44,263 nt of DNA from Solobacterium sp. (lineage in GTDB: Bacteria > Bacillota_I > Bacilli_A > Erysipelotrichales > Erysipelotrichaceae): NCBI GenBank assembly GCA_017433125.1, contig JAFRHT010000078.1, forward strand, positions 1-44,263. Reading direction: 5' to 3'. The notes under the pieces were generated by a model, which saw nothing but the letters and a program-made list of their open reading frames with translations, was not told the DNA's origin and made no database searches. A program made the position numbers and the translations under genes. Positions 2,768 through 31,591 of this stretch are shown piece by piece (within the stretch, counting starts at the first letter, position 1; every line of letters begins with the position of its first letter).

Positions 2768-2819
2768 TGTTGTCCCGGCCGGTTTGTGTTATCCTAATAG
2801 CCGTAAGAGGATCAGAAAC

Positions 2820-4043
2820 ATGATAAAGATACTGCTGTGGGACATTGATGGGACGGTGCTGAATTTCTTGGAGGCAGAGAAAAATGCCATCCGCATGGGT
2901 TTTGCGGAGTTTTCCCTGGGAACCTGTACGGATGAGATGCTGCGGGTATACTCGGCCATCAATGAGAAGTACTGGCAGCGTCTGGAACGGGGTGAGATGA
3001 GCAAGCCGGAGATCCTGATCGGCCGTTTCCGGGAGTTCTTTTCGCGTTATCATCTGCCGGCAGACACAGCCGAAGAATTCAATCGCAGGTATCAGACCAA
3101 TCTCGGGGAAACGATCTGTTTCAATGACAATGCCTTTGAACTGATTACCGGGCTGAAAAACCGGGTGTTTGAATATGCTGTAACCAATGGCACGGAAGTC
3201 GCCCAGGAGAAGAAACTGCGCCGGTCCGGGCTGGACCGGGTGTTTGACGGGGTGTTCATTTCCGAACGGCTCGGGGCGGAGAAACCGTCCCGGGAGTTCT
3301 TCCGGCAGGTATTCGCCGCCATCGGAAACCCGGACCCGGATGAGGTGATGATCATCGGGGATTCTTTGACCAGTGACATGCCGGGCGGCCTGAACGCCGG
3401 CATCCGGACATGCTGGTATAATCCCGCACATCTGCCCCAGCCGGAAGGAATGATGCTGGATTATGTCATTGATGATCTGTCCGCTGTGCCGGGAATACTG
3501 GACAGGGAAGGCACCCCGGAACTGTGGGACGTCCTGGACAGTGAACACCGCCGGACCGGCCGGCGCTGCGTACGCGGGACAGAGATGGCCCCGGAAGATT
3601 ACCACCAGGTGGTGCATATCTGCATTTTCAATGAACAGGGGGAGATGCTGATCCAGCAGCGGACTGCTGCGAAGAAAGAATGGCCTTCCTGTTGGGATGT
3701 CTCGACCGGCGGCAGTGCCCTGGCCGGGGAAACCAGCCGTGAAGCCGCGGCCCGGGAACTGTACGAAGAGCTGGGCATACAGTATGATTTCAGCACTGCT
3801 GAGCCGGTCATGACCGTACACGACCGGAATATTTACGATGATTTCTTTGCCGTGGTGCTGCCGGTGAATCTGTCCGGGCTGCGGCTGCAGAAAGAAGAAG
3901 TCGCCCGGGTGCGCTGGGCTGATTATGACACCGTGCGGCAGATGATTGCGGCAGGGACGTTTATACCATACCGGCCGGGCTATCTGGAGGTCATGTTCGC
4001 CAGCCGCGGCACAACCGGGGCGATTGAGAGGTACAGAGGATGA
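2820..4043 (+). CDS. HAD-type nucleotidase fused to a Nudix hydrolase
   Basis: A two-domain protein of 407 residues. The N-terminal half is a HAD phosphatase of the YjjG/pyrimidine 5'-nucleotidase type: DIDGT (D8 and D10), motif II T122, motif III K155 and motif IV GDSLTSD around D181. The C-terminal part is a Nudix domain whose box is complete from G298 (G-x5-E304-x7-R312-E313-L-x-E316-E317-x-G319-I). The Nudix part resembles the isopentenyl-diphosphate-isomerase-like branch that acts on varied diphosphates. The fusion suggests one protein that hydrolyses non-canonical nucleoside di/triphosphates and then the monophosphate; that coupling is inferred. The ATG at 2820 is chosen, with AGAGG upstream, over a GTG 36 bases earlier. 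Its stop overlaps the next start as ATGA. Confidence 0.88.
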   Translation: MIKILLWDIDGTVLNFLEAEKNAIRMGFAEFSLGTCTDEMLRVYSAINEKYWQRLERGEMSKPEILIGRFREFFSRYHLPADTAEEFNRRYQTNLGETICFNDNAFELITGLKNRVFEYAVTNGTEVAQEKKLRRSGLDRVFDGVFISERLGAEKPSREFFRQVFAAIGNPDPDEVMIIGDSLTSDMPGGLNAGIRTCWYNPAHLPQPEGMMLDYVIDDLSAVPGILDREGTPELWDVLDSEHRRTGRRCVRGTEMAPEDYHQVVHICIFNEQGEMLIQQRTAAKKEWPSCWDVSTGGSALAGETSREAAARELYEELGIQYDFSTAEPVMTVHDRNIYDDFFAVVLPVNLSGLRLQKEEVARVRWADYDTVRQMIAAGTFIPYRPGYLEVMFASRGTTGAIERYRG

Positions 4044-5644: not shown

Positions 5645-7570
5645 ATGACAGAAACACAGCGCTATGATGACAGCAGTATTCAGATTCTGAAAGGCCTGGA
5701 ATCTGTCCGCAAACGTCCGGGCATGTATATCGGTTCGACGGACAGCCGCGGCCTTCATCATCTGATCTGGGAAATCGTGGACAATTCCATTGACGAAGCA
5801 ATCAACGGGTACGGCAGAAAAATCAGCATTACCCTGGAAGAAGACGGATCCTGCACGGTACAGGATGACGGCCGCGGCATGCCGACAGGCATGCATGAAA
5901 GCGGCGTGAATACCCTGCAGGTTATTTTTACGGTTCTGCATGCCGGCGGCAAGTTTACAAGTGAAGGCGGATACAAGACGGCGGGCGGCCTGCACGGGGT
6001 CGGCGCGTCGGTGGTCAACGCCCTGAGTGAGTGGCTGGAAGTTGAGGTGGCCCATGACGGCCGGCTGGTGCGCATGCGTTTTGAGCACGGTGATCAGAAG
6101 ATCGGCAAGCTGGAAGATCTCGGCCGGACAAACCGGACCGGGTCCACAGTCCGCTTCAAGCCGGACCCGGCGATTTTCACGACCGTGGATTTCAAGTTTG
6201 ATACGGTCTGTGAACGGGCCCGGGAAAAAGCTTTCCTGCTCAGCGGCATTGCCATGACCGTGACGGATAAAAGAAGCCGGCGGACCGCCAGTGAAACATA
6301 CTGCTATGATGACGGCCTGACGGCATACCTGAACTATCTGACAGAGGACAGGACCCCGATGATGAACCCGGTCAAACTGAGCGGGGAATCACAGGGCATC
6401 AGGATCGAATGTGCCTTCCAGTATACCGATGACTACCAGGAGAACACGTACAGTTTTGTCAACCTGGTGCGCACCATCGACGGCGGTACGCACGAGGTCG
6501 GATACAAGTCGGCCTTTACCAAGGCTGTCAACGACTACGCCAGAACGCATGGCCTGCTGAAGGAGAAGGACAAGAATCTTGAAGGCGGGGATGTGCGGGA
6601 AGGGCTCACATCGATTCTTTCCGTGTCTGTCCCGGAAGAGATCCTGCAGTTTGAGGGCCAGACCAAAGGCAAGCTTGGCACCCCGCAGGCCAAATCGGCA
6701 GTTGATGCCGTGGTGGCGGACAAGCTGGCTTACTGGCTGGAGGAAAACGGCGAGCAGAGTGTCCGGCTGATCCGCAAGATGATGAAGGCGGCCATGGCCC
6801 GGGAAGCAGCCCGGAGGGCCCGTGATGATGCCCGCAAGGGAAAGAAAACGACCCGGAATGAAAAGATTCTTTCCGGCAAGCTGGCCCCGGCCCAGACCAG
6901 GGATGCGGCGCACAAGGAACTGTTCCTGGTCGAGGGTGATTCGGCCGGCGGCAGTGCCAAGCAGGGTCGGGATTCCCGTTACCAGGCCATTCTGCCGCTG
7001 CGGGGCAAGGTGCTGAATACGGAGAAGTGCACCATGGGCGAGATTGAGAAGAATCTCGAACTGAACACCCTGATTCATGCGATTGATGCCGGGGTGGGTC
7101 CGAGTTTTGACTATCAGGCTTCCAATTACAGCAAGATCATCATCATGACCGATGCGGATGATGACGGTTCGCATATCCAGATCCTGCTGCTGACGTTCTT
7201 CTACCGCTACATGCGGCCGCTGCTGGAACAGGGCATGGTCTACATTGCGCTGCCGCCGCTGTACAAGGTGACAAAGGGCAAGCAGACGCAGTACTGCTAC
7301 ACCGATGATGAACTCGATGCGGTCCGCAAAAAACTGGGCCGGATCGAAGTGCAGCGTTACAAAGGCCTTGGTGAGATGAATGCCACCCAGCTGTGGGAGA
7401 CAACCATGGACCCGGCTACCCGGACCCTGATCAGAGTCGGCATCCAGGATGAAATGCTGGCTGATAAGCGGGTATCGGTGCTGATGGGCGACAAGGCCGA
7501 CCGGCGCCGCAAGTGGATCGAAGACAATATCTCCTTCACACTGGAGGATGATTTCAAGGTGGACGCATAA
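5645..7570 (+). CDS. parE: DNA topoisomerase IV subunit B (ParE)
   Basis: A 641-residue ATPase subunit of topoisomerase IV, which separates sister chromosomes and relaxes supercoils. GHKL ATP-site motifs are present: EIVDNSIDEA, DDGRGMP and the YKTAGGLHGVGASVVNAL segment, whose TAGG and GASV wording favours ParE over GyrB. The Toprim domain follows with LVEGDSAGGSA and TDADDDGSHI. Length is normal for Bacillota ParE. Its TAA shares one base with the parC ATG, the standard parE-parC arrangement. AAGGAG precedes the start. Confidence 0.94.
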   Translation: MTETQRYDDSSIQILKGLESVRKRPGMYIGSTDSRGLHHLIWEIVDNSIDEAINGYGRKISITLEEDGSCTVQDDGRGMPTGMHESGVNTLQVIFTVLHAGGKFTSEGGYKTAGGLHGVGASVVNALSEWLEVEVAHDGRLVRMRFEHGDQKIGKLEDLGRTNRTGSTVRFKPDPAIFTTVDFKFDTVCERAREKAFLLSGIAMTVTDKRSRRTASETYCYDDGLTAYLNYLTEDRTPMMNPVKLSGESQGIRIECAFQYTDDYQENTYSFVNLVRTIDGGTHEVGYKSAFTKAVNDYARTHGLLKEKDKNLEGGDVREGLTSILSVSVPEEILQFEGQTKGKLGTPQAKSAVDAVVADKLAYWLEENGEQSVRLIRKMMKAAMAREAARRARDDARKGKKTTRNEKILSGKLAPAQTRDAAHKELFLVEGDSAGGSAKQGRDSRYQAILPLRGKVLNTEKCTMGEIEKNLELNTLIHAIDAGVGPSFDYQASNYSKIIIMTDADDDGSHIQILLLTFFYRYMRPLLEQGMVYIALPPLYKVTKGKQTQYCYTDDELDAVRKKLGRIEVQRYKGLGEMNATQLWETTMDPATRTLIRVGIQDEMLADKRVSVLMGDKADRRRKWIEDNISFTLEDDFKVDA

Positions 7571-10095
7571 TGGCAAGAAAGAACGAATTTGAAGACAATA
7601 CAAAATATGTGCCGGTGCTGCTGGAAGATGTCATGGGCGACCGGTTCGGCCGTTATGCCAAATATATCATTCAGGAGCGGGCCCTGCCGGATGCCCGGGA
7701 CGGTCTGAAGCCGGTCCAGCGCCGGATTCTTTATGCCATGTATCATGACGGCAATACCTGGGATCACCCATACCGCAAATCGGCCAAGACGGTCGGCCTT
7801 GTCATCGGTAATTATCACCCGCACGGGGATACCTCTGTCTATGATGCGATGGTCCGCATGTCCCAGGACTGGAAAGTGCGGCTGCCGCTGATTGATATGC
7901 ACGGCAACAACGGTTCCATTGATGATGACCCGGCTGCGGCGATGCGTTATACCGAAGTGCGCCTGGCCAAGGTCACGCAGATCATGGAAGATGACCTGGA
8001 CAAGGATACCGTGGAGATGGCCCCGAACTTCGATGATACGGAAAACGAACCGACGGTCCTGCCGGTGCCGTTCCCGGTCATGCTGGTCAACGGGGCAACC
8101 GGCATCGCGGCCGGTTATGCGACCAACATGCCGCCGCATAATCTGAGCGAAGTCGTGGACGCGGCGATTTACCGTCTGCAGAATCCGAACTGTATGCTTT
8201 CTGAGATTATCGAACTGATCCCCGGCCCGGATTTCCCGACCGGCGGTATCGTACAGGGGGCGCAGGGCATCCGCGAAGCGTTTGAAACCGGCCATGGCCG
8301 GGTGGTTGTGCGGGCCAGGGCGGAAATTGTCCAGGCCAAGACCTGCCGGCAGATCGTCATTACGGAAATCCCGTATGAAGTCATCAAGAGCGATCTGGTC
8401 AAGAAAATGGATGAAATCCGGCTGTCCCGTGATATTGACGGGATTCTGGATGTCCGTGATGAAACCGACCGGACCGGTCTCAGGATCGTTGTCGATGTGC
8501 GCAAGGACGCCGATGCCGGCATGATCCTGAACTATTTCTATAAAAATACCGATCTGCAGATCTATTACAGTTACAACAATGTGGCGATTATCGACAAGCG
8601 GCCGGTGCAGGTGGGCCTGCTGGGGCTGCTGGACGCGTTTATAGCCTTCCGCAAGGAAGTGGTTATCCGCCGTTCCCGGTTTGAACTGGACCGCATGGAG
8701 AAACGGTGCCATGTCATCGAAGGCCTGATGAAGGCCGTATCGATTCTTGACCAGATCATCGATATCATCCGGCATTCACAGGACAAGGCCGATGCCAAGC
8801 GGAACCTGATGGCGGAGTTCGGCTTTGATGAACCCCAGGCCGAAGCGATCGTCACCCTGCGGCTGTACCGGCTGTCCAACACGGATATCTTTGAACTGCG
8901 GGAGGAGTTTGCCGAACTGGTCAACCAGATTGAGGAGACCAGGTCCATCCTCGAAAACCCGAGCATCCTGACCCATGTCATCGTGCAGGAACTCAAGGCT
9001 GTCCGCAGGGAATACGGACAGGAGCGCCGGACGAAGATTGAGGATGAGATCAGCGAACTGGTCATCAACCGCTCCAGCATGGTGGCCAGCGAACGGGTGG
9101 TCGCAACGGTGAGCCGGGACGGTTATGTCAAACGCGTTTCCCTGCGTTCCTACGGGGCCAGCGAGGGCACCCCGACCGGATTGAAGGAGGGGGATGAACT
9201 GATCGGCCATATCGAGTGTGATACGCTCGATACGCTGCTGCTGTTCACCTCGAAGGGCAATTATGCCTGCCTGCCGGTCTGGCAGATCGATGAGGGCAAG
9301 TGGAAGGACCTCGGCATGCACCTGAACAAGGTGGTGCGGATTGAAGGCGATGACAAGATCCGCAATGTCATTGTGATCCACAGTTTTGACACCTATGCCT
9401 GGATCGTGACGGCTTCCTCGGACGGATTTATCAAGAAAACACCGGCTTCCGCCTGGCAGGTCCAGCGCAACAGCCGGGTCATGCCGGCCATGAACCTCGG
9501 TCCGCAGGCTGAACTGCTGACTGCGTTTGCGGCCTATCCGGATGATGCAGTCACCCTGGTGACCCGTGACGGCTTCGCCAGCCGCTACAGTCTGGACCAG
9601 GTACCGGAAACCGGGATCAGGGCCAAGGGCGTCAAAGCTGTCAATCTCAGCGCCGATGACCGGCTGGCCTTTGTCTGCCCGCTGCGCCGGGGTGTGCAGG
9701 GCGTCCTGTATGTCTGCCGCAACGGGGCCATGAAGCGGGTCCGGCTGGATGATATCCAGCAGGGCAACCGGCCCGTAAAGGGCAGCCTGATTGCCAAGAA
9801 AGTCAAATCCAACCCGAATGAACTGCTGCTGGTGCGGCCGGTCACCCCGGGTGATATCCTGGCTTTCTATGATCCGGAAGAGCATCTGCTGAAAGCTTCC
9901 GAAGTTCCGCTGAAGACCACGGATACCACGTTCAGCACACCGCTGAGCCTGAAGGCCGGCTGGTATCTGCGCCGGGGTATTGAGGACTGCCGCATGGTGG
10001 AAATTCCGCCGGAAGCGCTGGCTGCCAAGAAAGAAGAAAGCCATCCGGATGTGGAAAGGCTGAGTCTCTTTGATGAAGAAGGTGAAAAGGAATGA
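7570..10095 (+). CDS. parC: DNA topoisomerase IV subunit A (ParC)
   Basis: An 841-residue DNA cleavage subunit, partner of ParE. The active-site tyrosine is Y127 in AAAMRYTEVRL. The C-terminal half carries the repeated beta-propeller blades typical of ParC/GyrA. At the quinolone pocket the protein reads HPHGDTSVYDAM, placing Thr88 where S. aureus GrlA has Ser80 and Asp92 where it has Glu84. The last part is acidic (SLFDEEGEKE). It overlaps parE by one base and yqeH by four (ATGA), so topoisomerase and ribosome-assembly genes may be cotranscribed. Confidence 0.94.
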   Translation: MARKNEFEDNTKYVPVLLEDVMGDRFGRYAKYIIQERALPDARDGLKPVQRRILYAMYHDGNTWDHPYRKSAKTVGLVIGNYHPHGDTSVYDAMVRMSQDWKVRLPLIDMHGNNGSIDDDPAAAMRYTEVRLAKVTQIMEDDLDKDTVEMAPNFDDTENEPTVLPVPFPVMLVNGATGIAAGYATNMPPHNLSEVVDAAIYRLQNPNCMLSEIIELIPGPDFPTGGIVQGAQGIREAFETGHGRVVVRARAEIVQAKTCRQIVITEIPYEVIKSDLVKKMDEIRLSRDIDGILDVRDETDRTGLRIVVDVRKDADAGMILNYFYKNTDLQIYYSYNNVAIIDKRPVQVGLLGLLDAFIAFRKEVVIRRSRFELDRMEKRCHVIEGLMKAVSILDQIIDIIRHSQDKADAKRNLMAEFGFDEPQAEAIVTLRLYRLSNTDIFELREEFAELVNQIEETRSILENPSILTHVIVQELKAVRREYGQERRTKIEDEISELVINRSSMVASERVVATVSRDGYVKRVSLRSYGASEGTPTGLKEGDELIGHIECDTLDTLLLFTSKGNYACLPVWQIDEGKWKDLGMHLNKVVRIEGDDKIRNVIVIHSFDTYAWIVTASSDGFIKKTPASAWQVQRNSRVMPAMNLGPQAELLTAFAAYPDDAVTLVTRDGFASRYSLDQVPETGIRAKGVKAVNLSADDRLAFVCPLRRGVQGVLYVCRNGAMKRVRLDDIQQGNRPVKGSLIAKKVKSNPNELLLVRPVTPGDILAFYDPEEHLLKASEVPLKTTDTTFSTPLSLKAGWYLRRGIEDCRMVEIPPEALAAKKEESHPDVERLSLFDEEGEKE

Positions 10096-25667: not shown

Positions 25668-25718
25668 AAACAACGAGAGAAATCTCATGTTCTTTTCAAA
25701 ATGGGAGGTTTTATATAT

Positions 25719-27272
25719 ATGAACAATATTCTTGTCCCCATTTTGGCATGTTTAGTTGGTTTAGTGATTGGCGTCATCATCATGATGATCGCAAGCCGTA
25801 ATGGTCTGGATGCCGCGCGTGTGCAGGCCGAAGCGCTTCTTGACGAATCCAAGGTGAAGGCGGAGAACGTGATCCGCCAGGCTACCCTCGATGGAAAGCA
25901 GCAGGTCTACGACATGAAGCTGCAGGCGGAGAAGGAGATCAAGGATCAGAGAAATCGGATCCAGCAGACTGAAAACAAGCTGACCCGCCGTGAAGATAAT
26001 CTTAATTTCCGTGAAGAAAATCTGACCGTCAAAGAAAAGAAACTCGATGAGAAGATGAAGCTCGCGGAAGATAAACTGGCAAACCTGTCAAAAATGGAAG
26101 CTGATCTGCAAGATAAGATTGAAAGCCAGGTTGCTGTCCTCGAACGGACTGCCGGCATGAGCCAGGACGATGCCAAGAAGGAACTGATGGACATCGTTGA
26201 AAAGCGGACTGAGAAGGAAATTGCGGCATATCTGAGAGAACAGCAGGATATCGCCGAAGAAAAAGCTGCCGACAACGCCCGGACCATTATCGCCAACGCG
26301 ATTCAGCGCTACAGCCAGGAGGAAACGCTTGAACGTACAGTCTCCGTTGTAACGCTGCCGAGTGAAGATATGAAGGGCAGAATCATTGGCCGGGAAGGCC
26401 GGAATATCAAAGCCATCGAACAGGCTACCGGGGTTGACCTGATCATCGATGATACCCCGGATGTCATTACGGTATCCTGCTTTGATCCGATCCGGCGGGA
26501 AATTGCCCGGCAGTCACTGGAAATCCTCATGCGGGACGGCCGTATCCAGCCGGGCCGCATTGAAGAGGTTGTTGCCAAGGTGACCAGGGATCTGGACGAA
26601 AGCATCATGAAGATCGGTGATGAAGCCGTCTTCAAGATGGGTATCGGCCGGCTGAACAAGGAACTGATCAAGCTGCTCGGACGGCTGCGGTTCCGCTACA
26701 GCTACGGCCAGAATGTGCTGGAACACTCCATGGAAGTGGCAACATTTGCCGGCATCATGGCGGCTGAACTCGGTCTGAACCAGGCCCTGGCCAAGCGGGC
26801 CGGCCTGCTTCACGACATCGGCAAGGCCATCGATTTCGAGCAGGAAGGCAGCCATGTTGAGCTGGGGGCCAAGGTTGCCAAGAAGTACGGTGAAAATGCC
26901 ACCATCATCAATGCCATTGAATCCCATCATGGTGATGTGGCGGCCACCGGCATTATCTCCGAACTGGTTTCGGCTGCCGACACCCTGAGCGCCGCGCGCC
27001 CGGGGGCCCGCTATGAATCCATGGAGAACTATATCGAGCGTCTGGAACAGCTGGAAAAGATCGCGACCGGTTTCGACGGCGTGGAACGGGCCTTTGCCAT
27101 CCAGGCCGGCCGGGAAATCCGGGTCATGGTCCAGCCGGAAAAGATCAACGATGTCACCATGGTCAAGGTGGCGCATGATATCAAGGAAAAGATTGAGAAT
27201 GAACTGACCTATCCGGGTCAGATCAAGGTCACTCTGATCCGTGAGGTCCGGGTTCAGGAACTGGCTCAGTAG
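25719..27272 (+). CDS. rny: Ribonuclease Y
   Basis: A 517-residue membrane-tethered endoribonuclease that starts mRNA decay in Bacillota. An N-terminal membrane helix (about 4-26) is followed by a long charged coiled coil (about 30-180), a KH RNA-binding domain (GRIIGREGRNIKAIEQATG) and an HD domain with AGLLHDIGKAID. Length matches B. subtilis RNase Y (520). The ATG at 25719 is chosen, with GGGAGG ten bases upstream, because it begins with the membrane segment; the in-frame ATG at 25701 lies before that site. ymdB follows after two bases. Confidence 0.95.
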   Translation: MNNILVPILACLVGLVIGVIIMMIASRNGLDAARVQAEALLDESKVKAENVIRQATLDGKQQVYDMKLQAEKEIKDQRNRIQQTENKLTRREDNLNFREENLTVKEKKLDEKMKLAEDKLANLSKMEADLQDKIESQVAVLERTAGMSQDDAKKELMDIVEKRTEKEIAAYLREQQDIAEEKAADNARTIIANAIQRYSQEETLERTVSVVTLPSEDMKGRIIGREGRNIKAIEQATGVDLIIDDTPDVITVSCFDPIRREIARQSLEILMRDGRIQPGRIEEVVAKVTRDLDESIMKIGDEAVFKMGIGRLNKELIKLLGRLRFRYSYGQNVLEHSMEVATFAGIMAAELGLNQALAKRAGLLHDIGKAIDFEQEGSHVELGAKVAKKYGENATIINAIESHHGDVAATGIISELVSAADTLSAARPGARYESMENYIERLEQLEKIATGFDGVERAFAIQAGREIRVMVQPEKINDVTMVKVAHDIKEKIENELTYPGQIKVTLIREVRVQELAQ

Positions 27273-27274
27273 CC

Positions 27275-28048
27275 ATGAGAATACTGTTTCTTGGTGATGT
27301 GACCGCCCGCAGCGGGCGGGATGCCGTTATCGCGGAACTGCCCCGTCTCAAACAGGAGTACGGGGCGGATTTCACCATCGTCAACGGAGAGAACGCAGCC
27401 CACGGCAAGGGGATCACGACGAAAATCTACCGGGCTCTGAAGGAGGCCGGCGCCGATCTGATCACGCTGGGCAATCACGCTTTTTCCAAAAGCGAGATTA
27501 TTACGGGCATGGGCAACTGCCCCGACCTGATCCGGCCGGCCAATCTGGAACCTGCGGATGCCGGGTCCTGCTGGGCGGTCAGAACCTGTCAGGGCAGACG
27601 CATTGCGGTGATCAACCTGCTCGGCAATATCTTCATGGACTGCGCGACAGAGTCACCGTTTGCGGCCATGGACAGGATCCTGCCGGAGGTGCAGGCCGAT
27701 GCGATCCTGGTGGACCTGCATGCGGAAACCACCAGCGAGAAACAGTTGTTCTTCCATCGTTACCGGCAGCGAGTCAGCGCCGTGATCGGCACGCATACCC
27801 ATGTGCAGACCGCTGATGAACGTGTGCTGGACGGCTGTGCCTTCATCAGTGATGTCGGCATGTGCGGACCATACGAGAGTATTATCGGCCGCAGCATTGA
27901 AGAAGTCATGGCCCGGATGATCGATCAGACCCAGACCCGGTTTACGCCGGCCGAAGGACCGGCAATTATCTGCGGGGTTGTCATTGAGATTGATGACAAT
28001 ACCGGCCGGGCCCGCAGCATTGAGAGAATACAGAAACGTCCATTCTGA
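27275..28048 (+). CDS. ymdB: YmdB-type metallophosphoesterase
   Basis: A 257-residue calcineurin-like phosphodiesterase of the YmdB family, which hydrolyses 2',3'-cyclic nucleotides in B. subtilis and is encoded next to RNase Y. Metal-site motifs are LGDVTARSGRD, VNGENAAHG, LGNHAFSK, DLHAETTSEK and IGTHTHVQTAD. GNHAFSK departs slightly from the common GNHTWD. It starts two bases after the rny stop, so the pair is cotranscribed. Confidence 0.92.
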   Translation: MRILFLGDVTARSGRDAVIAELPRLKQEYGADFTIVNGENAAHGKGITTKIYRALKEAGADLITLGNHAFSKSEIITGMGNCPDLIRPANLEPADAGSCWAVRTCQGRRIAVINLLGNIFMDCATESPFAAMDRILPEVQADAILVDLHAETTSEKQLFFHRYRQRVSAVIGTHTHVQTADERVLDGCAFISDVGMCGPYESIIGRSIEEVMARMIDQTQTRFTPAEGPAIICGVVIEIDDNTGRARSIERIQKRPF

Positions 28049-28063
28049 AGAAGGGGCGTTTTC
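28034..28063 (+). terminator. Possible terminator overlapping the ymdB end
   Basis: AAACGTCC and GGGCGTTT can pair with one G-U across a 12-base loop, followed by TTC. The stem is moderate. Confidence 0.45.
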
Positions 28064-28101
28064 ATTTGATCTGTCCGGATATTCCCGGTAAATAAAGCGG
28101 G

Positions 28102-28151
28102 TATAATCAGAATTCTTTCCGGGTTCTTGCAGGCATGGTATTGTTTATAAG
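28102..28151 (+). promoter_or_regulatory. Promoter region of the phosphatase-GTPase operon
   Basis: Two -10 elements are visible. TATAAT lies at 28102-28107. An extended -10, TGGTATTGT (hexamer 28139-28144), would start transcription at about 28151, exactly at the GTG start codon. There is no Shine-Dalgarno sequence between them. Confidence 0.5.
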
Positions 28152-28621
28152 TGGAAGAAAAGAAAAAAAAGATTCTGTTCGTCTGCTGGGGCAATATCTG
28201 CCGCAGTCCGATGGCGGAATACATCATGAAATACCTGGCCGGACAGGCTGGTCTCTCAGACCGCTTTGAGATTGACTCGGCGGCCGTATCCGCGGAAGAA
28301 ACGGGCAATCCGGTCTATCCGCCGGCCCGCCGGATCCTGCATGCGCATGGCATCCCGTGCGGGAATCACCGGGCCAGGCAGATGACCCGGGCGGATTATG
28401 ACTGTCATGATCTGCTGATCGGTATGGATACAGTGAATATTGCCTGGATGAAACGCATCTGCGGCGGTGATCCGGAACATAAAATCCGGCAGATGATGGA
28501 CTATACAGACCGGCCGGGTGATGTCAGTGACCCGTGGTACACCGGCGATTTTGAAACAGCATACCGGGATATCCTGGCCGGCTGCACCGGCCTGATTGCT
28601 CAAACAGAACAGGAGAAATGA
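28151..28621 (+). CDS. Low-molecular-weight protein-tyrosine phosphatase
   Basis: A 156-residue phosphatase. The P-loop is VCWGNICRS with nucleophile C12 and R18, and the general-acid aspartate is in DPWYTGDFETAY near the C-terminus. Position 16 is isoleucine, as in tyrosine-specific LMW-PTPs; the YwlE arginine phosphatases have threonine there, so phosphotyrosine is the likelier substrate. The start is GTG and no ribosome binding site is visible, so a leaderless mRNA is possible. It is the first gene of a three-gene unit with a redox protein and a ribosome-directed fusion protein. Confidence 0.88.
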   Translation: MEEKKKKILFVCWGNICRSPMAEYIMKYLAGQAGLSDRFEIDSAAVSAEETGNPVYPPARRILHAHGIPCGNHRARQMTRADYDCHDLLIGMDTVNIAWMKRICGGDPEHKIRQMMDYTDRPGDVSDPWYTGDFETAYRDILAGCTGLIAQTEQEK

Positions 28622-28625
28622 ATAT

Positions 28626-29093
28626 ATGACAGAACAGTTTATCCGGGAATTCATCGCGCGTGAAGAAAGCCTTCCGGCAGAAGAGCGTCCTTTTTATCAT
28701 ATGAACTGTGCCGAAAACCTGCTGCGCTCCGCCGCCCGGCAGTATGACCTGGATGTGCCGGAGCAGATGTTCCGGATTGTCATCCCGTATGGGGCAGGGA
28801 TGCAGACGCAGAATACCTGCGGCGCGCTGCTTGGGGCACTGGCGGCCATCGGCCTGCTGTACAGCGAAGAAAAACCGTCAAAGGATCTGAAAATGAAAGC
28901 GGCTGTCCGGGCGTATGTACAGCGTTTCCAGGATGAATTCGGGAGTCTTTCCTGCGCGGCAGTCAAACCGGCATTCCAGGATGAACGCCGGACCTGCACA
29001 CCGGTCAAGGTCAGAGCCGGTCAGCTCCTGGATGAGGTCGCTGCGGATATCGATGCGATCCATGCTGCTTATCTGAAGGAAACAGGCCAATGA
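28626..29093 (+). CDS. C_GCAxxG_C_C family redox-type protein
   Basis: A 155-residue protein of the small cysteine-rich family named for its C...GCAxxG...C...C spacing. Here the cysteines are in HMNCAENLL (C28), NTCGALLGALAAIGLLY (about residue 61), SLSCAAVKP and RRTCTPVK. Members are thought to be redox-active or cofactor-binding, often near redox or transport genes; the function is not established. The ATG at 28626 follows AGGAG by ten bases. Its stop overlaps the next start (ATGA), so it is translationally coupled to the GTPase-nuclease fusion. Confidence 0.75.
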   Translation: MTEQFIREFIAREESLPAEERPFYHMNCAENLLRSAARQYDLDVPEQMFRIVIPYGAGMQTQNTCGALLGALAAIGLLYSEEKPSKDLKMKAAVRAYVQRFQDEFGSLSCAAVKPAFQDERRTCTPVKVRAGQLLDEVAADIDAIHAAYLKETGQ

Positions 29094-31591
29094 GGAAGAA
29101 AACTGTCATCGGCATTCTGGCCCACGTCGATGCCGGCAAGACCACCTGCATTGAAAGTATGCTGTTCAACTCCCGGCAGATCCGGAAGATGGGCCGCGTG
29201 GATCACCGCGACGCGCTGCTGGACTACGACGAGAACGAGCGCAGCCATGGGATTACGATCTATGCCAAGGAAGCCTACCTGCCCTGGCAGGATACGGATA
29301 TCTACGTCATTGATACCCCGGGGCATGTGGACTTTTCCAGTGAGATGGAGCGCAGCCTGCAGGTGCTGGATTTGGCCGTCATCCTGATCAATGCCCAGGA
29401 TGGTGTGCAGAGTCATACCAGGACCATCTGGCGGTGCCTGGAACAGTATCATATTCCGGCCCTGATCTTCATCAACAAGATGGATATCAGCTATCGTTCA
29501 GCCGCGGAACTGCTGGCCGACCTGCGGCAGCACTGCAGTGAAGACTGCATTGATTTCAGCGCGGCCGACCGGCTGGAGCGGCTGGCCATGGTCAGTGACG
29601 ATATGCTCAACGCCTTCATGGATACCGGTACAATCAGTGATGACATGGTCCGCCAGGCAGTATCCCAGCGTCTCTGTTTCCCGGTGCTTTCCGGCTCGGC
29701 CCTGAAAAACCAGGGGATCAGCGAACTGCTGGACCTGATTGTCCGCTGTGCCCCGCAGAAGGAATATCCCGATGTCTTCGGTGCCCGGGTCTACAAGATC
29801 TCTACGGATCCGGAGGGCAACCGGCTGACCCATATGAAGATTACCGGCGGGGTTTTGCGTGCCCGCCAGCGCATCAATGACCAGGAAAAAGCGGATCAGA
29901 TCCGGATCTACAGCGGCCCGGAGTTCCGCATGGTGCAGCAGGCCGAAGCCGGCATGATCTGCGCGGTCAAGGGACTTGTCAGCGCCGAAACGGGCCAGGG
30001 CCTGGGATATGAGGAAAACCGCACAAAACCGGTCCTGCAGGCCTGCATGGACTACGAACTGCTGGTGCCGGAAGGAACCGACATGCTCAGGCTGACCGAA
30101 ACCTGCCGGCGGATCGCCGACGAGGATCCGCAGCTGATGCTGACAATCGATCCGGTGACCCGGAACATCCATATCCGCATCATGGGTGAAATGCAGAAGG
30201 AAATCCTCGAGGACCGGATCCGTCAGGCCTGCGGGGTCTCCGTGGGCTTCAGTTCCGGCGGAATTCTCTATCAGGAAACCATTGCCGCCCCGGTGATCGG
30301 TGTCGGTCATTTTGAGCCGCTGCGCCATTATGCGGAAGTCGTGCTGAAACTCAGCCCGCTGCCGCGGGGCCGGGGTCTTCTGATCGACTCGGAGTGCCCG
30401 GTTGACAATCTTTCGCTGAGCTGGCAGAAGTCAATATTCACCAGCCTGCGGATGAGTGAACCGCCCGGGATCCTGACCGGGTCACCGTTAACGGATATGC
30501 GCATTACCATTCTCAACGGCCGCGCCCATCCCAAGCATACCGAAGGGGGAGACTTCCGCGAGGCGGCCCTGCGGGCAGTCCGCATGGGGCTGATGAAAGC
30601 CGGCGGGGTGCTGCTGGAGCCCATGGTCAGTTACACGGTGACCCTGCCGCAGGAATACCTGAGCCGGGCCCTCTATGATCTGGAACAGCACCAGGCTTCC
30701 GTACAGATCAAGGAAGCAGGTGAGGGGCAGACCGTGATCAGCGGGCGGGGGCCGCTGCGGCTCATGCGCAATTACCAGCAGGATGTTACGGCCTATACCC
30801 GCGGCCGCGGCACATACGAAGCGGCGGCAGACGGCTATGCGGAAACGGCTGAACAGGAAGCCCTGGTGACAGGCAGCGGCTATGATCCCGAGCGGGACCT
30901 GGCCCATCCGTCAGCTTCGGTTTTCTGTGAACATGGCAGCGGTTATGCCGTCCCGTGGTACGAAGTCGAAGATCACATGCATCTGGAACTGCAGAAAGAG
31001 ACAAACAATACTGCCTACCAGCACCGCCGCTATCAGGTGAGCGCGGCGGATCTGAACCGGCTGAATGACATGGCCGGCGGTAAGAACCGGAAGGAAGATA
31101 CCTATATCCGTGATCCCAGGAAGCCGCTGAGCAGCGATCCGGTCCGCATCAAGGTTCGTGATGAACTGCCTGTCTGCATGATTATTGACGGCTACAACAT
31201 GATCTACGGCTGGGACAGCATGAAAGCGCTGGCGGAGATCGACATCACCACTGCCCGGGAGAAACTGATTGACGAACTGTTCAGCTACCAGGCCTATCTT
31301 GGGCACCGGATGATCCTGGTGTTTGACGGCTACCGGCGGCCGGATAACTACGGTACTTCCTACCGCCGCGGCAAGGACATGAAGATTGTCTATACCCGCA
31401 CGAATCAGACCGCGGACCAGTATATCGAGGAGATTACCAGCGAGATGAAGAAGAAGTACAACCTGATCGTGGTTACTTCGGACAACCTGATCCAGAACGC
31501 CGTGTTTGCCCAGGGTGCCATGCGCATGTCGGCCCGTGAACTGGAGAACCAGATCCGTTTCCGGCGCAGCCAGGGCAGCTATAATATCTGA
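29090..31591 (+). CDS. TetM-like ribosome-binding GTPase fused to a Rae1/YacP-type NYN nuclease domain
   Basis: An 833-residue fusion. Residues 1 to about 640 follow the full layout of TetM/EF-G ribosomal-protection GTPases: AHVDAGKTT (11-19, K17), HGITI, DTPGHVDF from D75, NKMD from N129, then EF-G-like domains II to V with PQEYLSRALYDL. The domain IV loop III differs from TetM (AHPKHTEGGDFR against STPADFR). After a roughly 50-residue charged linker comes a NYN/YacP domain: IIDGYNMIYGW (D700), LVFDGYRRP (D746) and VVTSDNLIQN (D798), the acidic cluster of PIN-like nucleases. In B. subtilis, YacP (Rae1) is a separate protein that cuts mRNA in the ribosomal A site. This gene joins both activities in one chain. 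Tetracycline resistance is possible but unproven. Confidence 0.9.
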   Translation: MRKKTVIGILAHVDAGKTTCIESMLFNSRQIRKMGRVDHRDALLDYDENERSHGITIYAKEAYLPWQDTDIYVIDTPGHVDFSSEMERSLQVLDLAVILINAQDGVQSHTRTIWRCLEQYHIPALIFINKMDISYRSAAELLADLRQHCSEDCIDFSAADRLERLAMVSDDMLNAFMDTGTISDDMVRQAVSQRLCFPVLSGSALKNQGISELLDLIVRCAPQKEYPDVFGARVYKISTDPEGNRLTHMKITGGVLRARQRINDQEKADQIRIYSGPEFRMVQQAEAGMICAVKGLVSAETGQGLGYEENRTKPVLQACMDYELLVPEGTDMLRLTETCRRIADEDPQLMLTIDPVTRNIHIRIMGEMQKEILEDRIRQACGVSVGFSSGGILYQETIAAPVIGVGHFEPLRHYAEVVLKLSPLPRGRGLLIDSECPVDNLSLSWQKSIFTSLRMSEPPGILTGSPLTDMRITILNGRAHPKHTEGGDFREAALRAVRMGLMKAGGVLLEPMVSYTVTLPQEYLSRALYDLEQHQASVQIKEAGEGQTVISGRGPLRLMRNYQQDVTAYTRGRGTYEAAADGYAETAEQEALVTGSGYDPERDLAHPSASVFCEHGSGYAVPWYEVEDHMHLELQKETNNTAYQHRRYQVSAADLNRLNDMAGGKNRKEDTYIRDPRKPLSSDPVRIKVRDELPVCMIIDGYNMIYGWDSMKALAEIDITTAREKLIDELFSYQAYLGHRMILVFDGYRRPDNYGTSYRRGKDMKIVYTRTNQTADQYIEEITSEMKKKYNLIVVTSDNLIQNAVFAQGAMRMSARELENQIRFRRSQGSYNI

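Follow-up and report, generated by a model that had tools for sequence, protein, structure and literature searches.

A fusion of a Tet-like GTPase to an RNase domain has been known in outline since 2015, and the architecture is thus not new. Ten Clostridiales were described as having Tet proteins that carry a NYN domain of the YacP type, and RNase-based resistance was proposed as their role, without functional work (Atkinson 2015, BMC Genomics, PMC4342817). Rae1 (YacP), a free protein of ~170 aa encoded beside rlmB, is an A-site mRNA endonuclease (PMC12320835; PMC6613710), and TetM and EF-G occupy the A site (PMC8161019). The gene described here lies in a stretch of 44,263 nucleotides, referred to as the window, and has the same order as the fusions of Atkinson, a Tet-like GTPase followed by a YacP-type NYN domain in one chain. 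Compared with the ten Clostridiales known before, the fusion is now extended to Erysipelotrichia, a group name inferred from sequence resemblance and gene content, and to several more Clostridia families. New here, as judged by sequence comparison, are a separate GTPase clade with its own tip (xAHxKHTEGGDFR), its unfused orthologues, the replacement of Rae1 and the conservation of the catalytic residues. We give roughly even weight for and against the protein being a chromosomal ribosome-associated factor, in which the GTPase acts and a tethered Rae1-type nuclease then cuts A-site mRNA. No functional study of a GTPase-NYN fusion was found in the open-access literature, in agreement with the original prediction made for this DNA.

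The fusion ORF (29090-31591, forward strand) begins with ATG and encodes 833 aa with zero internal stops, arranged as GTPase (residues 1-589), a conserved C-terminal extension (to ~632), a linker (638-691) and the NYN_YacP/Rae1 domain (697-824). The single frame with GTPase and then NYN, as originally read, was borne out by the uninterrupted ORF and by the Pfam domains (Table 1), with NYN_YacP found within the expected residues 690-833 (697-824, E 8.2e-39). The motif positions given at that time (K17, D75TPGH, N129KMD, D700, D746 and D798) were all correct, and a fourth conserved acid, D776, had been overlooked. A frameshift or assembly artefact was ruled out by ~120 independent sequences with the same fusion from Erysipelotrichia and Clostridia, Agathobacter and Monoglobus being further carriers, and of the 40 loci examined in the window's family and the wider group, 39 had a continuous gene. 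The fusion is thus real and conserved. The one exception among the 40 (L063, from genome G076 of the same genus) showed a frame change within the linker at 9536-9578, where the GTPase (712 codons) and the NYN domain (160 codons, -1 frame) lie in different frames that overlap across two A-rich runs. The break may reflect faulty assembly, a genuine split of the gene or slippage at the A-rich runs.

Table 1. Features of the fusion locus and its upstream neighbour, by position in the window.
Feature	Residues	Position	Strand	Basis
C_GCAxxG_C_C redox-type protein		28596..29093	+	4-base overlap (ATGA) with fusion start
Fusion gene, EF-G/Tet-like translational GTPase and YacP/Rae1 NYN nuclease	833 aa	29090..31591	+	ORF, Pfam
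G domain	6-222	29105..29755	+	Pfam GTP_EFTU 1.8e-49
Domain II	232-302	29783..29995	+	Pfam EF-G_D2 22.8 bits, below cut-off 27
Domain III	330-386	30077..30247	+	Pfam EFG_III
Domain IV, clade signature GHFEPLRHYAEV	392-504	30263..30601	+	Pfam EFG_IV, conservation
Domain IV tip, loop III, GRAHPKHTEGGDFR	477-490	30518..30559	+	alignment of 117 fused sequences
Domain V	507-589	30608..30856	+	Pfam EFG_C
GTPase C-terminal extension, motif SVFCEHGSGYxVxWYEVxxxMH	~590-632	30857..30985	+	conservation, predicted structure
Disordered linker	638-691	31001..31162	+	pLDDT under 50
NYN_YacP / Rae1 nuclease domain	697-824	31178..31561	+	Pfam 8.2e-39; PDB 5MQ8/5MQ9 YacP 7e-21
Acidic residue (Rae1 D7)	D700	31187..31189	+	100% in 117 fused and 22 stand-alone
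Acidic residue (Rae1 D53)	D746	31325..31327	+	100%
Acidic residue (Rae1 D81)	D776	31415..31417	+	99%
Acidic residue (Rae1 D104)	D798	31481..31483	+	99%

The GTPase half has the five EF-G-like domains of a Tet(M)-type protein with intact G motifs, consisting of the P-loop AHVDAGKTT with K17, the switch I sequence SHGITI (RGITI-type), D75TPGH79, N129KMD and GSALK. The domain II region, with a Pfam score below the cut-off, showed its strands in the predicted structure. K17, D75, H79 and N129 were invariant over 117 fused sequences, in which the catalytic residues of both halves were at least 98% conserved. By sequence, the nearest solved structure of this half was TetM (3J9Y, 2e-73), and the fold search with the full predicted model ranked EF-G and EF-2 first, as expected. 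Tet(M) and Tet(O) (PDB 3J9Y, 4V6V) share with the fusion the five domains and a C-terminal extension at ~30% identity. Unlike them, however, the fusion belongs to a separate clade, has another loop III and a longer C-terminal extension with its own motif, carries an added nuclease and shows no link to mobile resistance elements.

In the GTPase tree, built by a quick method with EF-G as outgroup and SH-aLRT support, fused and unfused sequences formed one group (100) beside the Tet(M/O/W/Q) group (99). Within it, 20 of 21 window-side fusions grouped together (99), as did the clostridial unfused sequences (98). The deepest forks are compatible with a single fusion that was later lost in places or with repeated fusion. 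The best-scoring NCBIfam model was tet_protect, at 375 bits against a cut-off of 775. The original assignment as a ribosomal-protection-type GTPase thus held for the five EF-G-like domains and the G motifs, but on the tree and the tet_protect cut-off the protein is placed in a clade of its own, sister to Tet(M/O/W/Q), rather than among Tet(M)-type proteins.

The tip of domain IV separates the two clades as well. Loop III reads GLYYSPVSTPADFR in TetM, GSYHEVDSSEMAFK in EF-G and GxAHxKHTEGGDFR in the fused family, where K482 (111 of 117 sequences), H483 (115 of 117) and T484 (115 of 117) are conserved. The replacement of PADFR by GGDFR, noted in the original prediction, is correct by the alignment of the 117 fused sequences; the Tet(M) loop YSPVSTPADFR with its P509 is absent, and the window has HPKHTEGGDFR, with K482 aligned to P509. 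In TetM, P509 contacts 16S C1054 in the drug site (PMC8161019). Proline loss alone cannot exclude drug protection, since TetM with the triple change S508A/P509A/V510A remains active (PMC4750697).

Antibiotic ribosome protection, in which tetracycline or some other drug would be expelled from the A site by the GTPase, with the NYN domain in an accessory role, e.g. clearing mRNA or rRNA as Atkinson proposed, is the strongest of the alternatives and is in our view unlikely. TetM being the closest solved relative, tet_protect the best NCBIfam model, the activity of the triple mutant, and the TetM, TetW, TetO or TetS family labels that some database records give to such proteins would all fit it. 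A plain resistance protein, which the original prediction had already doubted, is nevertheless argued against by the failed 775-bit cut-off, the tree and the wholly different loop III taken together, and a plain tetracycline resistance gene is disfavoured on the same grounds. Also against drug protection are the clade-wide chromosomal distribution, the absence of mobile linkage in the window and the varied neighbours elsewhere. Labels of the kind 'tetracycline resistance ribosomal protection protein' on the fusion clade are probably mistaken, and could lead to resistance genes being overcounted in gut metagenomes.

The same GTPase also occurs without the nuclease. A 'translation factor GTPase family protein' found in Ligilactobacillus salivarius and some Clostridia is unfused; in L. 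salivarius it has ~40% identity over residues 3-633 and shares the GHFEPLRHY signature and the C-terminal extension with its motif, while the NYN domain is absent. Its loop III, ASNVHTVGGDFR, keeps HT and GGDFR but not K482. When a model of domain IV and the C-terminal extension was searched in 66 Clostridia genomes, three clear score classes were obtained, corresponding to fused proteins (398-424 bits), unfused orthologues (297-336 bits, in frames of ~650-730 codons) and other factors (120 bits or less). Unfused GTPases were present in 12 of 40 genomes with stand-alone Rae1, in 2 of 16 without NYN and in 0 of the 10 fused genomes searched. Since unfused orthologues occur in genomes with free Rae1 or without NYN, the GTPase has a role for which the nuclease is not required, and the orthologues lacking any NYN are the main weakness of the mechanism that we favour.

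The nuclease half is a Rae1/YacP domain, with a NYN_YacP score of 133.7 bits against a gathering cut-off of 24.6. It resembles B. subtilis Rae1/YacP (PDB 5MQ8, 5MQ9) in its NYN sequence family and in its four acidic residues, D7, D53, D81 and D104 in B. subtilis numbering, all of which are present in the window. The aspartates that had been called conserved, D700, D746 and D798, were so in 99-100% of the 117 fused sequences, and N703 was invariant too. Positions invariant in 22 stand-alone Rae1 sequences were nearly all kept in at least 90% of the fusions, with E107, R118 and E123 of Rae1 being looser. In contrast to Rae1, the domain of the window is fused, lies outside the rlmB operon and lacks the C-terminal tail, its match covering profile positions 1-135 of 166. 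Within this missing region, R166P abolishes Rae1 function in B. subtilis (PMC6613710), and many clostridial fusions retain the tail; one reading is that docking has passed from the Rae1 tail to the GTPase in the window lineage. In the NYN tree, 21 of 22 stand-alone sequences fell in one group (100/98), and the minimum number of changes needed was two. The stand-alone NYN of one genome (G759, loci L230/L201), which also has an unfused GTPase, was nested among fused NYN domains (97/57), a possible fission of the fusion.

In order to see how the domain is distributed, genomes of three samples were compared for NYN_YacP. NYN_YacP was present in 88 of the 146 genomes of the window's family, nearly all in frames of ~820-930 codons; short frames were few, and include the frame break described above and one that begins at a contig end. 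The wider phylum sample had 39 of 392 genomes over the cut-off, again nearly all long frames, and Clostridia had 248 of 391. The best 150 of the Clostridia matches comprised 82 long frames (fused), 63 stand-alone ones (169-216 codons) and 5 undecided. Since ~36-40% of the sampled genomes in the window's family and in Clostridia have no NYN_YacP at all, its function is dispensable. When an alignment of the C-terminal half was used to search the genomes of 84,980 species, all of the best 80 loci kept held fused genes (Clostridium, Desulfosporosinus, Anaerovorax, Fusibacter, Lachnospiraceae and Oscillospiraceae), though as best matches they say nothing about the rarity of unfused forms.

Fused and free forms rarely meet in one genome. 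Two NYN_YacP matches were found in only 5 of 391 Clostridia genomes, one having two fusions, one (G846) a fusion and a stand-alone gene, and three a second match below the cut-off. Fusion and free Rae1 together were thus seen in 1 of the 391 sampled genomes, compared with ~36 expected under independence, a figure extrapolated from the matches listed that ignores phylogeny. Likewise, none of 19 Clostridia genomes chosen for carrying the fusion had a stand-alone NYN_YacP over the cut-off. The original prediction asked whether a separate yacP is missing where the fusion occurs, and this holds for the window's own genome, in which the fused domain is the sole NYN_YacP match. There, no yacP lies between rlmB and the sigma gene (cysS-mrnC-rlmB-sigH), only 13 bases separating the cysS-mrnC-rlmB cluster from the sigma-factor gene; RlmB was identified by protein search and the other names were read from translations. 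In C. difficile yacP fills this slot between rlmB and sigH, which indicates that the domain has left its ancestral place in the window's genome. These comparisons show that the fusion replaces free Rae1, which it does in many gut bacteria. Its broadly chromosomal, clade-wide occurrence in Erysipelotrichia is as for a housekeeping factor.

Two fusions (L057 in G484 and L079 in G290, family f19) came from a family of the same class that is only distantly related. In both trees the neighbour of L057 is Clostridium punense (99 and 100/88), a placement that suggests horizontal transfer. In another genome, three matches of identical score lie exactly 71,006 bases apart (G113:C1, 2304129, 2375135 and 2446141), probably a tandem assembly duplication.

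The same distribution bears on a looser reading of the fusion, in which the halves are independent, joining sets only equal dosage or ribosome proximity, and the NYN domain acts as free Rae1. A long, disordered linker of variable length, together with the existence and occasional co-occurrence of unfused GTPase and free Rae1, is what such a loose arrangement would predict. However, throughout Erysipelotrichia and in many families of Clostridia the two domains have remained linked, apparently having come apart only once or a few times. Free Rae1 disappears where the fusion occurs, and the shorter Rae1 tail of the window lineage looks as though the GTPase had taken over docking. We regard the loose reading as improbable, slightly more so than drug protection. 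Processing of rRNA or tRNA, with the GTPase bringing NYN to ribosomes or precursors, is hardly probable, because, although Atkinson 2015 (PMC4342817) cites a first prediction of the NYN/YacP family in rRNA/tRNA maturation and yacP normally adjoins the rRNA methyltransferase gene rlmB, Rae1, the only characterised bacterial YacP in the cited literature, acts on A-site mRNA (PMC12320835, PMC6613710), and a large share of related genomes are without the domain, unlike what is expected of an rRNA maturase.

The AlphaFold2 model of the fusion (mean pLDDT 85, pTM 0.66) was confident for the GTPase and its extension to ~632 and for the NYN domain, with disorder predicted at 638-652 and 657-691. The linker varies in sequence and length within the family, by one measure from 57 to 114 residues (62 in the window), as would suit a flexible tether. 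Chains this long can bridge several nanometres, so the A site may lie within reach.

In the mechanism of successive action that we favour, as the simplest one to unite both halves, the GTPase half would bind a ribosome that has stalled or been blocked by a drug, at its factor site and A site, through the clade-specific HxKHTEGGDFR loop of its tip, clear the A site, hydrolyse GTP and then rearrange or leave, withdrawing the tip. A flexible linker of ~55 residues, which joins the nuclease to domain V, would then let it reach the emptied A site and cut mRNA in it, so that the ribosome enters rescue. Here we infer ribosome binding, the order of the steps, mRNA as the substrate and stalled ribosomes as the trigger. 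The two halves probably act one after the other, since domain IV and Rae1 are thought to share A-site space; simultaneous action in the A site appears sterically unlikely from the published binding sites. The conservation of both active sites (98-100% over the 117 sequences), the relationship of the NYN domain to bona fide Rae1 and the replacement of Rae1 support this mechanism, as does the predicted structure, with its confident folds for GTPase and NYN on either side of a disordered linker. Against it stand the missing Rae1 tail in the window, the dispensability of the function and the competition for the A site. If true, many gut Lachnospiraceae, Oscillospiraceae and Erysipelotrichia would deliver an A-site endonuclease by a GTPase, which would explain how an A-site RNase stays off working ribosomes. 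The fusion makes it possible to test directly how stalled ribosomes are selected by nucleases of the Rae1 type.

The neighbourhood of the gene differs between genomes. In the window, the C_GCAxxG_C_C gene and the fusion are, from their overlap, probably translationally coupled, a pairing that is not conserved in relatives. No conserved operon partners were found, neighbours being varied and the rny/ymdB neighbourhood absent in relatives. No PADLOC match was obtained, and a role in anti-phage defence was set aside. A mobile or plasmid-borne gene was likewise rejected, since only 2 of 72,556 plasmid records hold the fusion, both of them large replicons (251 kb and 518 kb) that come from gut Clostridia and are typed as non-mobilizable, and no mobile linkage was present in the window. 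A further NYN match on a C. difficile 'plasmid' (L170, NZ_CP149721.1) was discarded, as the record looks like a chromosome piece, with gltX, cysS, rlmB, yacP, sigH, tuf and ribosomal protein genes.

Several other arrangements were observed along the way. On the 251 kb replicon of Agathobacter rectalis (L167), a CopG/BrnT toxin-antitoxin pair lies directly upstream of the fusion (7307-7815). In the window, rny (RNase Y), ymdB, a low-molecular-weight phosphatase gene and the C_GCAxxG gene (25701-29093) precede the fusion in one tight run, possibly an RNA-decay operon. Elsewhere in the window, positions 2784-4040 encode a protein of 419 residues in which a HAD hydrolase is joined to a NUDIX domain.
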